Source: an uncultured Clostridia bacterium (GTDB taxonomy: Bacteria > Bacillota > Clostridia > Oscillospirales > Ruminococcaceae). From it: a stretch of 38,405 nucleotides of DNA. The stretch covers positions 1-38,405 of the forward strand of contig CANRFM010000019.1 in the NCBI GenBank assembly GCA_947629905.1. The letters are read 5' to 3'. The notes beneath the pieces were generated by a model. It was not told the DNA's origin, did no database searches, and was given only the letters and a program-made list of their open reading frames with translations. Positions 16,667-24,898 of this stretch are shown piece after piece (the stretch's first letter is position 1; each line of letters begins with the position of its first letter). The position numbers and the translations under genes are program-made.

Positions 16667-16790
16667 TTCGGAATATAGGTGTGCGGGCCCTGTGCAATGG
16701 AGCACTGTGAACCATGTCAGGCGGGGAACCGAGCAGCATTAAGCGGATCGTTTCATGTGCCGCAGCAAGCCTGCACACCTATGTTCCGAA
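16667..16790 (+). ncRNA. ffs: Signal recognition particle RNA, small bacterial type
   Basis: It contains the SRP hairpin signature: GTGAACCATGTCAGG on the 5' side, the GGAA tetraloop region, and GAGCAGCATTAAG on the 3' side, which bind Ffh. The ends pair as a long stem: TTCGGAATATAGGTGTGC (from 16667) with GCACACCTATGTTCCGAA (to 16790). About 124 nt, with no room for an Alu domain, so this is the short form. It lies directly upstream of dnaX, as in many Firmicutes. The exact 5' end may be 16652-16667. Confidence 0.92.
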
Positions 16791-20980: not shown

Positions 20981-22261
20981 TTAACAGAGCCGCATACCGC
21001 CCACGCTCCGGAGCTGCATGACCTGACAGCAGCCCTTGCCGAGGGCATCTTCAATGCGTTTCTGAAAGCTTTCTAACATATCGAGCGGTACATATGCCTG
21101 TACCGTTCCCGCAAATCCGCCGCCATGCACCCGTACTGCGCCACGGTCGGCAAGCAGCAGTTCGCAGAGAGCGATCGTGACGGCAACGCCCTCATGCCGG
21201 GGGTCGTCATAAACGGCAGCGTTCTGGAGATACTGGAACGAGGAGCGCCCCGATGCCCGTATTTCTTCCAGATACTGCGAAAAATAGCCGTTCTGTAAGG
21301 AGCGCACCGCTTTGGTGACACGCTCATCATCGGCAAAATAATGCAGTGCCCGCAAAAATGCCCTGTCCCCGCAGGTCTTGCGGACTTGTGCTACAGAGGA
21401 CAGCAGTTCATAGCGGCTTGCCTGTGAAAGCACCGTATGCCCGAGGACTTTTGCGACCGAGCGCATTTCTGCCGGTATGGCTGCATAGGCATCTGTCATA
21501 TCGGAATGGTTGTCGCCGCTGTCTAAAATGCACAGCGCATAGCCCTCAGCGGCAAGGCTGATGTCCATTTGCGTGACGGCAGGTTCGGCATTGCGGAAAT
21601 CGATCGCAACAACACCGCCGAGCGCACTTGCCATCTGATCCATTAAACCGCAGGGCTTGCCGAGGTAGACGTTTTCGGCATACTGTCCGATGCGGGCGAT
21701 CTCCACGGGGCTGACGGGTTCTTTGGCGAAAAAGGCAGCGCAGATGTTCCCGATCAGCACCTCAAAGGCTGCCGAAGAGGAAAGCCCCGACCCGCCCGGC
21801 ACGTCCGACACGGTATAGGCATTAAAGCCCGTCACCGGGTAGCCGAGCGCTGCAAACCGGGCAGAAATACCCCGCAGCAGGGCAGCCGCCGTGCCTTTTT
21901 CTTCCGGGACAGGGGCGAGGGAGGTGATGTCCACAAATTCCGGTTTATGTTCTTGAGAGTGGATGCAGATATGACCGTCCGTGCGGATAGCGGAAACGCC
22001 GATAATGTCACGGTTGACCGCACCGCAGAGGACGTGACCGCCTTGGTGGTCGGTGTGGTTGCCGCAGAGTTCTGTTCTGCCGGGTGCGGAGAAGAGTGCA
22101 ATATCCGCCTCCGTGCCGAATTCTGCCCCGAAGCTTTTAACGGCATCGAGAAAGCGTTCCCGGTAGTGGGGAAGCTGATCGGCGGGGCAGGCATACATAC
22201 GTTTCAGGGAATCATCCAGTGCGCCGTTTTGCAGCGCATCCATGACAGCATTCTGTTTCAT
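20981..22261 (-). CDS. galK: Galactokinase
   Basis: A 426-aa GHMP kinase phosphorylating galactose at C1. Motifs: APGRTELCGNHTDHQGG (galactokinase signature), GGSGLSSSAAFEVLIGN (ATP loop), KPCGLMDQMASALGG, and VHGGGFAGTVQAYVP (motif 3). It is longer than the usual 390 residues because of an N-terminal stretch of about 30 residues before the FGTEADIALFSAPGR start, a form seen in clostridial enzymes. Its own promoter is at 22306-22334. Confidence 0.95.
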   Translation of the reverse strand: MKQNAVMDALQNGALDDSLKRMYACPADQLPHYRERFLDAVKSFGAEFGTEADIALFSAPGRTELCGNHTDHQGGHVLCGAVNRDIIGVSAIRTDGHICIHSQEHKPEFVDITSLAPVPEEKGTAAALLRGISARFAALGYPVTGFNAYTVSDVPGGSGLSSSAAFEVLIGNICAAFFAKEPVSPVEIARIGQYAENVYLGKPCGLMDQMASALGGVVAIDFRNAEPAVTQMDISLAAEGYALCILDSGDNHSDMTDAYAAIPAEMRSVAKVLGHTVLSQASRYELLSSVAQVRKTCGDRAFLRALHYFADDERVTKAVRSLQNGYFSQYLEEIRASGRSSFQYLQNAAVYDDPRHEGVAVTIALCELLLADRGAVRVHGGGFAGTVQAYVPLDMLESFQKRIEDALGKGCCQVMQLRSVGGMRLC

Positions 22262-22305
22262 AGCAGTCTCCTGTTTCAGATGTTGATGTATGGTTTACTT
22301 ATTTA

Positions 22306-22334
22306 AGTATATAATACTCTGCGTTTTTTTTCAA
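22306..22334 (-). promoter_or_regulatory. Promoter of galK-galE operon
   Basis: On the minus strand TTGAAA (22334-22329), 17-nt spacer, TATACT (22311-22306), about 45 bp upstream of the galK ATG. Confidence 0.8.
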
Positions 22335-22395
22335 GGGTTTTTCAGGATTTTCTGAAATTTCTGCATTGTTACCAAAAAAACGATACTTCAAAGCC

Positions 22396-22457
22396 CGATT
22401 TTGCACCAGACGCAGTGCCTGCGCTCCCGATTTGCCTCCCACCGGCAGCCTGCCGGT
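22396..22457 (-). repeat. Dispersed intergenic repeat, copy B (partial)
   Basis: On the minus strand this reads GGGAGGCAAATCGGGAGCGCAGG and a small GCAGGCACTGC hairpin, matching GGGAGGCACCACGGGAGCGCAGG at 23067-23089 with few changes. It is preceded by an ACCGGCA/TGCCGGT hairpin (22441-22457), as in copy A. Copies B and C flank the hairpin array in opposite orientation. Confidence 0.65.
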
Positions 22458-22989
22458 CAAATAGTAGGTGTGCGTGACAGGTGGCTGGCATTTAGAGCCA
22501 CCTGTTACGTACACATTGACTGCGACATTTTTTCTATATATATATAGCCAGTTGTCGCAAACTTTGCCGCAATTTTTTCTCTTGACAGGGACAACTATTT
22601 TCTATATATTATATAGCCAGTTGTCCCTCATTTTGTCCCTCAGTAGCTTTTTGCTACTAACTATTTGTGCACTCGAGTGCACAAAATCTGCTGTCAAATT
22701 TTGTCAAATGTAACATCGACGTTACAAAATCTTTCGTTTTCTATATTTTGTTGAGTCGAGTCACCAAAATCTGCTGTGAGATTCTCCGCAGTTGCCGCAA
22801 GGCAGCTCAGAGAATTTTGTGTCATCATGACACAAAATCGGTGTAGTAAAATATGACATTTAACGAAATGTGCCATAATGGCACATTTTATATTCCGCAA
22901 AGGGTGTCCATCAGGGTTACACCCTTTCAGGTATTGCAAAACTGTCATTTTGGTAGTTTTATATTTCCGTCGTGAAATGCGACGGAATT
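22441..22989. repeat. Array of a dozen different hairpins/palindromes, no gene
   Basis: Successive inverted repeats: 22441-22457; 22468-22514 (19-bp stem with two G-T pairs); 22521-22559 with an inner CTATATA/TATATAG; 22587-22628 with the same inner palindrome; 22642-22658; 22664-22685 (perfect, 22 bp); 22709-22726; 22745-22770; 22781-22815 (with GTTGCC-GCAA-GGCAGC); 22814-22838 (perfect, 25 nt); 22866-22888 (perfect, 23 nt); 22899-22927; 22938-22960; 22965-22987. Stems differ in sequence, but several share the frame ATTTTG...CAAAAT. Short open frames here have no ribosome site. Either a nest of small palindromic elements or one long structured RNA. Confidence 0.85.
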
Positions 22990-22998
22990 AAAAGTAAC

Positions 22999-23098
22999 AG
23001 TCAAGCAAGCCGACTTAAACTGCACTACCAGTCGAGTCAGCCGACCTTTGCGCCGTCAGGCGCATTGGGAGGCACCACGGGAGCGCAGGCTCTGCGCC
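22999..23098 (+). repeat. Dispersed intergenic repeat, copy C
   Basis: It matches the reverse complement of 2036-2115 from TGCACTACCAGTCG through AGCCGACCTTTG to GCATTGGGAGGCACCACGG, and ends in a GCGCAGGCTCTGCGC hairpin (23083-23097) that touches the glgB stop codon. CAGTCAAGCAAGCCGACTT (22999-23017) and CAGTCGAGTCAGCCGACCTT (23031 onward) are an imperfect direct repeat inside it. Confidence 0.75.
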
Positions 23099-24898
23099 TT
23101 ACTCTACTTGCAGCAACATCCCACAAAACGGCGGCAGGTCGAGGACAAAGCACCCGTCCTCCCTCTCGATGACCGTACCGGCAGTGTCGGGGCGTGTGCC
23201 GTTGTAAATGTCCGCACTCGAATCGAGCAGCACCGTGAGCCGCTTTGCATCGCAGTGCAGAACATAATGCACCTGCGGCGCTCCCGCAAAATTAAACACC
23301 CCCACCACCGATTCTGTGGAAGAGTAGCGCTGCATCGCATAACAGCAGGGGTAATTCTGGTCGCTGTCACGCCACTGGAAACCACCCTCCGCATAGTCCC
23401 GCTCGTAGAGGGCAGAGTGCTTCAGGTAGAGGTGATTCAGTTCCCGGATGAAACGGCAGAACGCATCGTGGATCGGATAGCGCAGCAAAAACCAGTCCTG
23501 CTCCCGCTGTTCATCCCATTCCCGAAGCTGCCCCAGTTCACTGCCCATGAAGTCGAGCATCTTGCCCGGATGTACCGCATTATACAGGTAAAAAGCCCTT
23601 GCCTGCGGGAATTTTTCTTCATACTGCCCATGCATTTTCTGGAGCACAGTTGCCTTGCCGTGGACATTTTCATCATGGGAGAACGGCAGGATGTAGCACT
23701 CACTATGATAGTACAGCATGGAAAAGGTCAGCTTGTGGTAGTCGTTATACCGGAACAGCGGGTCGGTCTGAAAATAGTGCAGCGTGTCGTTCATGTACCC
23801 CATATCCCACTTGTAATCAAACCCAAGCCCCCCTGCCCAGACGGGGGCGGAGACTTTCGGGTAGTCGGTCGAATCCTCTGCGCAGAGCATGACCCCCGGA
23901 AAGCGCTTCTTCAAGCCCGCATTCATATTCCGGATAAAGCCGAGGGCACTGTTGTTCACGCCGCATTCCGGTCTGCCACGCCAGTAAATCATGCGGCTGA
24001 TGGCATCCATACGCAGCCCGTCAAAGTGGTACTCCTCCAGCCAATAGGCAGCACTCGATTGCAGGAAACTCTGCACCTCGCCTTTGGAGTGGATGAAGTT
24101 GAGGCTGCCCCATTCGCTGACGGCAATATCTTCACTGGGGTATTCGTAAAGCGCTGCGCCGTCAAAATTTGCCAGACCGTAACTGTCCCTTGCAAAATGC
24201 ACCGGCACGAAATCCAACAGCACGCCAATGCTATTCCGGTGGCAGAGGTCTATCATCTCCTTGAGCTGCGCAGCCGTCCCGTAACGGGATGTCGGGGCAA
24301 AGAAGCCTGTATTCTGATAGCCCCAGCTCTCGTCCGCCGGGTGTTCGGCAATGGGCATCAGCTCTATGTAGTTGTAGCCCATCTTCTTTATATAAGGTAT
24401 CAGCTTGTCCGCAAGTTCCGTGTAGGTGAGCCATGCACCGGCTTCATCTTCCGGGTCGTCCTTTTTCTGCATCCACGAGCCGCAGTGCAGTTCGTAGATG
24501 TGCAGGGGTCTGTCCTTACAGTCGCTCCGCTGCGCCATCCACGCTTCATCCTGAAACTGATACTCGCTCAGGTCGCAAATTACGGAACAGAATGCCGGGC
24601 GCACATCCATCCCGAAACCGTAGGGGTCGCAGTGCTCCGTATAATTCCCGTCCTCGTGCCAGATGCGGTAGAGATAGCGCTGTCCGGCTTTTGCCTGTGG
24701 GACGTTGACTTCCCAGAAGTGTTCGCTGTAGCTGCGGTGCAGTTCCCAGTCCTGCCAGTTATTGAAATCGCCGATTAACGTAATGCGCTCCGTGTGGGGC
24801 GCATATACCCGGAATGTGTAGCCCTCCCTCGCCCGGTGTGCGCCGAGGTACTTGTGTGCGTCAAACATATCACCCGTATAGAATTTATAAATGTCCAT
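23099..24898 (-). CDS. glgB: 1,4-alpha-glucan branching enzyme
   Basis: A 599-aa GH13 enzyme that makes alpha-1,6 branches in glycogen. An N-terminal CBM48 (YLGAHRAREGYTFRVYAPHTERITLIGDFNNWQ) is followed by the catalytic barrel: YNYIELMPIAEHPADESWGYQNTGFFAPTSRYGT, nucleophile D298 in GLRMDAIS, acid/base E341 in LCAEDST, third Asp D409 in SHDENVHGK, and the GH13 C-terminal beta domain. It lacks the extra N-terminal domain of the longer enterobacterial enzymes, as usual in Firmicutes. AAAGGAG precedes the ATG. Its leader holds a 46-bp hairpin element; its promoter overlaps that of the TetR gene. Confidence 0.95.
   Translation of the reverse strand: MDIYKFYTGDMFDAHKYLGAHRAREGYTFRVYAPHTERITLIGDFNNWQDWELHRSYSEHFWEVNVPQAKAGQRYLYRIWHEDGNYTEHCDPYGFGMDVRPAFCSVICDLSEYQFQDEAWMAQRSDCKDRPLHIYELHCGSWMQKKDDPEDEAGAWLTYTELADKLIPYIKKMGYNYIELMPIAEHPADESWGYQNTGFFAPTSRYGTAAQLKEMIDLCHRNSIGVLLDFVPVHFARDSYGLANFDGAALYEYPSEDIAVSEWGSLNFIHSKGEVQSFLQSSAAYWLEEYHFDGLRMDAISRMIYWRGRPECGVNNSALGFIRNMNAGLKKRFPGVMLCAEDSTDYPKVSAPVWAGGLGFDYKWDMGYMNDTLHYFQTDPLFRYNDYHKLTFSMLYYHSECYILPFSHDENVHGKATVLQKMHGQYEEKFPQARAFYLYNAVHPGKMLDFMGSELGQLREWDEQREQDWFLLRYPIHDAFCRFIRELNHLYLKHSALYERDYAEGGFQWRDSDQNYPCCYAMQRYSSTESVVGVFNFAGAPQVHYVLHCDAKRLTVLLDSSADIYNGTRPDTAGTVIEREDGCFVLDLPPFCGMLLQVE

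Follow-up and report, generated by a model that had tools for sequence, protein, structure and literature searches.

Palindromic units that lie between genes, occur in both orientations and are dispersed in the genome make up the mosaics of repetitive extragenic palindromes (REP) and bacterial interspersed mosaic elements (BIME), and palindromic sites of the ParB–parS or Noc type are bound by a helix-turn-helix (HTH) protein. In Staphylococcus aureus pathogenicity islands (SaPIs), according to one account, the C-terminus of Rep recognizes iterons located immediately after the rep gene (PMC7581432). Another describes Per, a 302-bp non-coding origin-like element of Streptococcus thermophilus phage Sfi21, which gives copy-number-dependent resistance and can protect the cell by serving as an origin that draws phage proteins (PMC6356513); a further paper touches on Per through its reference list (PMC3445015). 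Here we analyse a stretch of 38,405 nucleotides from an uncultured Clostridia bacterium of the Ruminococcaceae (contig CANRFM010000019.1; the whole stretch is called the window below), in which a dense array of hairpins separates a galK-like gene from glgB. The array is best read as DNA sites rather than RNA.

Specifically, the left two thirds of the array (22468–22888) appear to hold a gene-free set of differing sites, of kinds found at genes for phage proteins that bind DNA. These would be two iteron units of the origin type and four or five palindromes that either belong to or resemble the kind embedded in a phage HTH gene. This identification, of which we are much surer than of the decoy role considered below, draws on the match to a covariance model, the phage context of the matches, the coherent change of iteron copies, the correlation between sites and protein helices, the lack of hits to either phage gene in the assembly of the window's genome, and a shorter gap in a sister species.

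Iteron units and the phage primase-helicase

Each iteron unit has a short iteron in three copies, arranged around CTATATA–TATATAG, the direct pair being spaced by 12 nt in both units of the window. Repeated short iterons thereby flank an AT-rich element, as in origins of the phage or SaPI type; a location beside the initiator gene, another mark of such origins, is lacking in the window. The copies read TGCGACA, TTGTCGCAA and TTGCCGCAA around CTATATATATATAG in unit 1, with one mismatch in the third copy, and AGGGACAAC, GTTGTCCCT and TTGTCCCT around CTATATATTATATAG in unit 2.

Genomes compared carry G numbers (G000 is the window's own), fetched loci carry L numbers, and the genus set comprises 38 genomes. 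The body of the array gave five weak matches in other genomes of the family, one of which, in G010, is a phage unit with the frame of 22583–22643 and an entirely different arm, TTACCGCAA replacing AGGGACAAC at all three copies. A covariance model built from these two sequences, R1, had matches in 14 of the 38 genus genomes (E ≤ 1), G016 alone having 15. A unit was found no more than 23 nt from the 3' end of a gene in G010, G031, G020, G023, G018, G025, G009, G016:C25 and G004:C236; the gene product terminates in an HTH-like motif. The G010 product, RepA, contains PriCT_2 and AAA_25 domains, matches phrog_2597 over its full length and is followed by RusA; its C-terminus was modelled as a winged helix, for which Foldseek alone returned no match at E ≤ 0.001. 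Genes of phrog_2597 occur in ten of the 38 genomes and have the unit next to them in nine, and none was found in the G000 assembly (E ≤ 1e-30; assembly 89.65% complete). The origin-type units of the window, whose origin role is putative, stand in that assembly without a hit to this phage gene.

Within the GTDB collection, the exact 20-nt core was present in 17 contigs, of which 15 are titled Ruminococcus or Oscillospiraceae and two come from other bacteria without a unit in the surroundings; it was also present in three viral contigs, two with an adjoining winged-helix end and the third being the same contig as L153. By eye, a P2-type hairpin like that of the window also adjoins the iteron unit in G010, G016, G020, G023, G003, G004 and G017. 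The units of G003, G004 and G016:C108 (L124, L126, L128, L143; three species) lie inside what we take to be spoIIIA sporulation operons. In G016, the origin unit with its P2 hairpin is present in many similar copies (L128, L142, L145–L152), some of them chimeras of two iteron types; as several lie near contig ends, these copies are probably repeated.

Across the copies of a unit, the iterons change together. Among 35 distinct unit sequences, 62 cells were altered on both sides of a pair, compared to 21.7 in shuffles and 2–15 in slid controls. Allowing at most one mismatch, the three copies agree in 13 of 13 units adjacent to repA or rusA and in 12 of 12 other, solo units outside G016, of which two are from the window; a row common to a G009 prophage and a solo unit of G017 entered this count a single time, under the solo units. 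The same is seen in two orthologous arrays, L463 (RGIG5975) and L465 (UBA4350). Over 323 columns, starting just before unit A and ending with the second P2 hairpin, they differ at 19, and 14 of these differences fall in unit B, whose three copies all read GGGACA in one array and GCGACA in its counterpart. Beyond this stretch the two arrays diverge by indels and differing palindromes, and both lie upstream of open reading frames (ORFs) that resemble serine recombinases by eye.

What the iterons follow could be examined at viral loci encoding a phrog_2597 protein (L153–L232, the best 80 of 112 relatives). Downstream of the repA stop codon, iteron arrays exceeded all shuffles at 57 of 77 loci versus one of 77 inside the gene, three of the 80 having been dropped because the protein was truncated or the DNA downstream of it short. 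In a set of 72 viral and 8 prophage loci (80 of 85, five having identical downstream DNA), the iteron tends to track the RepA recognition helix. Helix residues 6–7 RN went with GGGAAA (13/16), RR with GGGACA (9/11), RD with GGGGAA (7/10), RS with GGGAAA (3/4) and ER with GCGACA or CCGCAA (5/5), the rest of these classes receiving no iteron word. A class-free test gave a partial correlation of 0.27, with 0 of 2000 permutations as high, albeit by a noisy k-mer Mantel test. Applied to the window, this code predicts the ER/GCGACA type for unit 1 and the RR/GGGACA type for unit 2; the RR class is represented in G020, G018 and G009, and the ER class in G016 and G004. Irrespective of what the array does, the data suggest that the winged helix of a phage primase-helicase and the iterons downstream of its gene are linked by a specificity code.

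Palindromes and an HTH phage gene

A second covariance model, R2, was built from nine seed palindromes of the window and of clusters in G003, G004 and G017. It matched 18 of the 38 genomes (E ≤ 0.5), with E-values that are rough, so that weaker matches may be chance. Many matches fell within one phage gene, related to phrog_15609 and with DUF3102 below cut-off. Fetched by protein only, homologues of this gene numbered 26 in 19 of the 38 genomes, with none in the G000 assembly (both E ≤ 1e-8). After two without an alignable site were dropped, a palindrome of at least seven of nine pairs was found at the same codon position in all 24 (21 exactly and three within 1 nt, the best within 30 nt being taken), and in 22 of the 24 genes a single stretch reached the score of the embedded palindrome. 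Its arms take many sequences, which correlate with the HTH of the gene's own protein (partial correlation 0.39, 0/5000). Since a scan of the viral collection with the protein gave no relative, the embedded palindrome was tested on the genus genomes. Apart from any function of the array, the data also suggest a phage gene (L424–L448) whose coding sequence contains a palindrome that correlates with the HTH it encodes. A neighbour of the phrog_15609-like gene in G010 gave a match to phrog_1499 and a weaker one to an SbcC-like family.

The window palindromes framed by ATTTTG...CAAAAT resemble the embedded site, and the 18-mer TGTGCACTCGAGTGCACA is identical to a site within the phage gene of G028:C185. 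Gene-free clusters of palindromes with differing arms occur outside the phage gene in the window (four), G028:C48 (four), G003:C84 (three) and G017:C24 (three). As background, 15 palindromes were counted in 600 kb of viral loci, two in the rest of the window, and eight in 37.5 kb of 15 other G000 loci, four of the eight being one dispersed hairpin; overlapping G000 loci, window array included, gave 30 in 130,365 bases. A looser pattern run on viral contigs, with five N in place of four as spacing, gave at least 80 loci, of which one had four or more of the five inner pairs; we base no conclusion on it.

The gap, its hairpins and the host repeats around them

The gap extends from the galK-like start at 22261 to the glgB stop at 23099, both genes being on the minus strand. 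It measures 837 bp, close to the 840 bp of the initial annotation, is gene-free as that annotation had it, and is full of inverted repeats. The flanking gene names hold as well: GlgB exceeds its NCBIfam cut-off, and the other product is galactokinase-like, its top matches being galactokinases, yet under the cut-offs.

The hairpin array is real. A strict scan of 22420–23100 found seven near-perfect hairpins, compared to a mean of 0.27 and a maximum of two in 60 dinucleotide shuffles. Folded as single-stranded DNA, 22400–23110 gave −157 kcal/mol against −81 ± 4.5 for 20 shuffles (z = −17; 0/20 as good). The earlier count of about fourteen hairpins is a fair one if the two iteron hairpins, the imperfect palindromes at 22707–22732 and 22745–22770 and weaker stems (22642–22658 and, by eye, 22774–22813 and 22934–22960) are added to the strict seven. 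Of the finer details that had been described, three perfect palindromes are indeed present, with perfect arms in 22664–22685 (22 nt), 22814–22838 (25 nt) and 22866–22888 (23 nt); the common ATTTTG...CAAAAT frame exists, with 22745–22770 as an imperfect member; the GCAA loop at 22791–22806 closes a stem with, by eye, one G–T pair; and the opposite orientation of the two flanking repeat copies is seen in 22408–22441 and 23066–23099, which are 85% complementary. The features are listed in Table 1. The solo unit of G016:C9 ends in a tail similar to the hairpin at 22642–22658.

Table 1. Features of the array from left to right, in window coordinates
Feature	Position	Strand	Basis and remarks
Left flanking REP-like repeat (copy B of the initial annotation)	22408–22441	−	Inverted relative to right repeat; genome-dispersed
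GC-rich hairpin ACCGGCAG-CCTGCCGGT, attached to left repeat	22441–22457		Strict scan; similar hairpins adjoin REP-like units elsewhere in G000
P2 hairpin GGTGGCTGGC...GAGCCACC	22468–22514	+	Strict scan; prophage counterpart sits between iteron unit and rusA
Iteron unit 1, core GCGACA	22517–22575	+	cmsearch with R1, 45.4 bits (outside R1 training); copies coherent
Iteron unit 2, core GGGACA	22583–22643	+	One of the two R1 training sequences; copies coherent
Hairpin AGTAGCTTTTTGCTACT	22642–22658		By eye like hairpin starting at repA stop codon in L155 and G023
Palindrome, core TGTGCACTCGAGTGCACA	22664–22685		Strict scan; among the nine R2 seeds
Palindrome TGTAACATCGACGTTACA, 8/9 pairs	22707–22732		R2 seed
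Imperfect palindrome ATTTTGTTGAGTCGAGTCACCAAAAT, ATTTTG...CAAAAT class	22745–22770		R2 seed; not counted by the stricter palindrome scan
Hairpin with GCAA loop, contains a TTGCCGCAA word	22774–22813		Sequence letters
Palindrome TGTGTCATCATGACACA, odd centre	22814–22838		Strict scan and palindrome count
Dispersed host repeat core, encloses palindrome 22866–22888	22848–22966	+	Genome-wide BLAST, comparison of loci
Hairpin TTCCGTCGTGAAATGCGACGGAA	22965–22987		Strict scan; parts recur at other G000 loci
Right flanking REP-like repeat (copy C), end is glgB stop	23016–23099	+	Dispersed repeat

Around the phage-type sites, which entered the gap in this lineage, lies a mosaic of dispersed host repeats that accounts for the right third of the array. 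When 22300–23110 was compared by BLAST with the whole G000 genome, the 69 matches were, besides its own locus, confined to the ends and to 22848 onward. REP/BIME-like dispersal is thus a property of 22408–22456, 22848–22987 and 23016–23099, and 22468–22847 matched nothing elsewhere in G000 (E ≤ 0.001). All or part of 22886–22966 recurs at 12 of the 15 other G000 loci fetched, and a query of 22860–23100 matched 18 of the 38 genus genomes, chiefly through the repeat at 23016–23099. The core of that REP-like family, seen in loci of G000, G035, G036 and G037, is GACCTTTGCGCCGTCAGGCGCATTGGGAGG.

GlgB is present in 34 of the 38 genus genomes (E ≤ 1e-100). In the sister species G035, whose GlgB is 97% identical and whose region before the galK-like gene aligns to its G000 counterpart at 87%, the gap is 219 bp with one REP-like unit; in ten further genomes with a galK-like start after glgB (by eye, among 23 loci) it is 110–269 bp. 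Because these gaps are far shorter, we take the array to be an insertion in the G000 lineage, with ends in or at REP-like sequence.

Searches of the array against a plasmid collection, and of a related G000 element against a phage collection, gave no match within the plasmids and the phages, respectively, that they covered. G000 also contains about a dozen large elements (L060–L067, L069, L071–L073) with a common core and, at most of them, inverted arms. Their arm units carry several GGCGTRY-like words around TATATAGCC, the word shifting coherently between units (by eye GCGTAT, GTGTAC, GTGTGC), and are also present in G171 and G056, which belong to a different genus of the family (L105–L108); the arms are perhaps iteron arrays of another replicon. 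Elsewhere in the window, a bacterial small SRP RNA lies at 16681–16779 (RF00169), the single match of an Rfam scan and one outside the array.

Possible roles and comparison with known systems

Of the three options put forward by the initial annotation, a protein-binding array fits best, given that the sequences of iteron units and palindromes correlate with the DNA-binding helices of phage proteins. A nest of small mobile palindromic elements is the right description for the right third (22848–22987) and for the REP-like repeats on either side, given their dispersal in the genome; the block as a whole is an insertion specific to this lineage. The third option, a long structured RNA or RNA switch, is hardly credible to us despite the strong folding (calculated with DNA parameters), the compensatory changes in unit stems and a promoter-like TTGACA-17-TATATT at 22582 that overlaps unit 2. 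The third, direct iteron copy is not needed for pairing and nonetheless changes along with the stem, the iterons correlate with a winged-helix protein, and one class of palindrome occurs within phage coding sequence. Known structured RNA families were rejected, since neither the array nor any of 15 related loci had a match at the Rfam gathering score. A CRISPR array was rejected too, the repeats being merely short, irregular and in two or three copies, without identical direct repeats and equal spacers.

If the sites are what they seem, the phage RepA and the palindrome-binding protein would bind them, and on infection the array would draw both the initiator and the palindrome-binding protein off the phage's own sites, much as in the Per effect of phage origins, with several specificities side by side in one array. 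We regard the site identity and this decoy role, taken jointly, as about an even call. If the sites do trap phage proteins, this would be a defence made of DNA sites alone, missed by gene-based searches and with a repertoire readable from sequence. A broader form of the idea, tentative and in our view rather doubtful, is a DNA-only immunity: libraries of binding sites for phage proteins, free of genes and with one variant per specificity, would be maintained by bacteria and by rival mobile elements. Such sites would titrate replication initiators and palindrome-binding proteins of incoming phages and be swapped in step with phage specificity. We found no title or abstract on such chromosomal arrays in a literature search that reached few subscription journals and not bioRxiv.

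Several observations weigh against the decoy or the evidence behind it. The chief weakness is copy number, on which the Per effect is described as depending: a chromosomal array on its own gives few copies per cell, perhaps not enough if binding is neither tight nor early in infection. The unit alignment used for covariation was fitted to structure, and two of five covariation measures did not exceed shuffles, 81 and 109 of which, out of 500, scored as high. Only five of the ten distinct solo units of G016 are coherent, the other five being broken, one of them a two-iteron chimera, as relics would be. Helix classes and iteron words were picked after inspecting the same loci, the words being tried in a fixed order, and 32 of the 80 loci stayed unassigned overall; GGGACA also accompanies KK helices (3/5), the plain helix–iteron correlation is weak (0.14) among the 1633 RepA pairs with body identity below 0.70, and no rise is seen in the bin of the 34 pairs whose helices are most alike. 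Just one of the four counted window palindromes equals a phage-gene palindrome, and two have an odd centre unseen there. Finally, because L463 and L465 adjoin serine-recombinase-like ORFs, some arrays may be on mobile elements.

A real possibility, though short of probable, is that the array consists of inert captured fragments, pieces of phage origins recombined into intergenic repeats and copied along with REP-like and other repeats as harmless relics. Several solo units look, by eye, like the complete repA–rusA intergenic region, down to the repA tail and a stretch like the rusA ribosome-binding site; one G017 solo unit is identical to a G009 prophage unit over the model-aligned 58 nt, the G016 units are multicopy and partly incoherent, and the window block is a lineage insertion between repeats. 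Against relics speak the coherence of all solo units outside G016, the coherent iteron switch between L463 and L465, and the several different palindromes of clusters (four in G028:C48, three in G003:C84), most phage genes having a single one. We consider it unlikely that the array is a minimal satellite or hijacker, whose cis-sites (origin, partition-like) let several helper phages replicate or carry a non-autonomous element: the array is gene-free and its neighbours are galK-like and glgB, even if unit 1 and the P2 hairpin are laid out like the phage repA–rusA intergenic module, the flanking repeats are inverted and the L463 and L465 arrays precede recombinase-like ORFs. Very unlikely, in turn, is a REP/BIME-like mosaic of host palindromes devoid of any phage link, with hairpins acting on transcription ends, supercoiling or mRNA; this is true of the flanks and of 22848–22987, whereas the rest is unmatched in the genome and has units that match phage modules.

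Read as phage-type DNA sites, the array is close to several known systems and identical to none. With SaPI-type origins it shares short repeated iterons, which in phages lie beside an initiator-like gene whose C-terminus is modelled as a DNA-binding winged helix; the protein is, unlike there, of phrog_2597 with PriCT_2 and AAA_25, and the window has no such gene and places two specificities next to each other. Like Per, it would be non-coding DNA of phage-origin type acting as a decoy, a resistance role proposed by analogy; Per is one phage's element, whereas the window has a chromosomal array that mixes origin units with palindromes. Its likeness to REP and BIME mosaics is limited to the flanks and the right third, units 1 and 2 and the TCGA palindromes being sites of phage type. 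The pairing of a palindromic site with an HTH protein recalls ParB–parS and Noc; here, the site lies within the presumed binder's own gene, and the phrog_15609-like protein has no ParB match among its Pfam hits, any partition role being putative.
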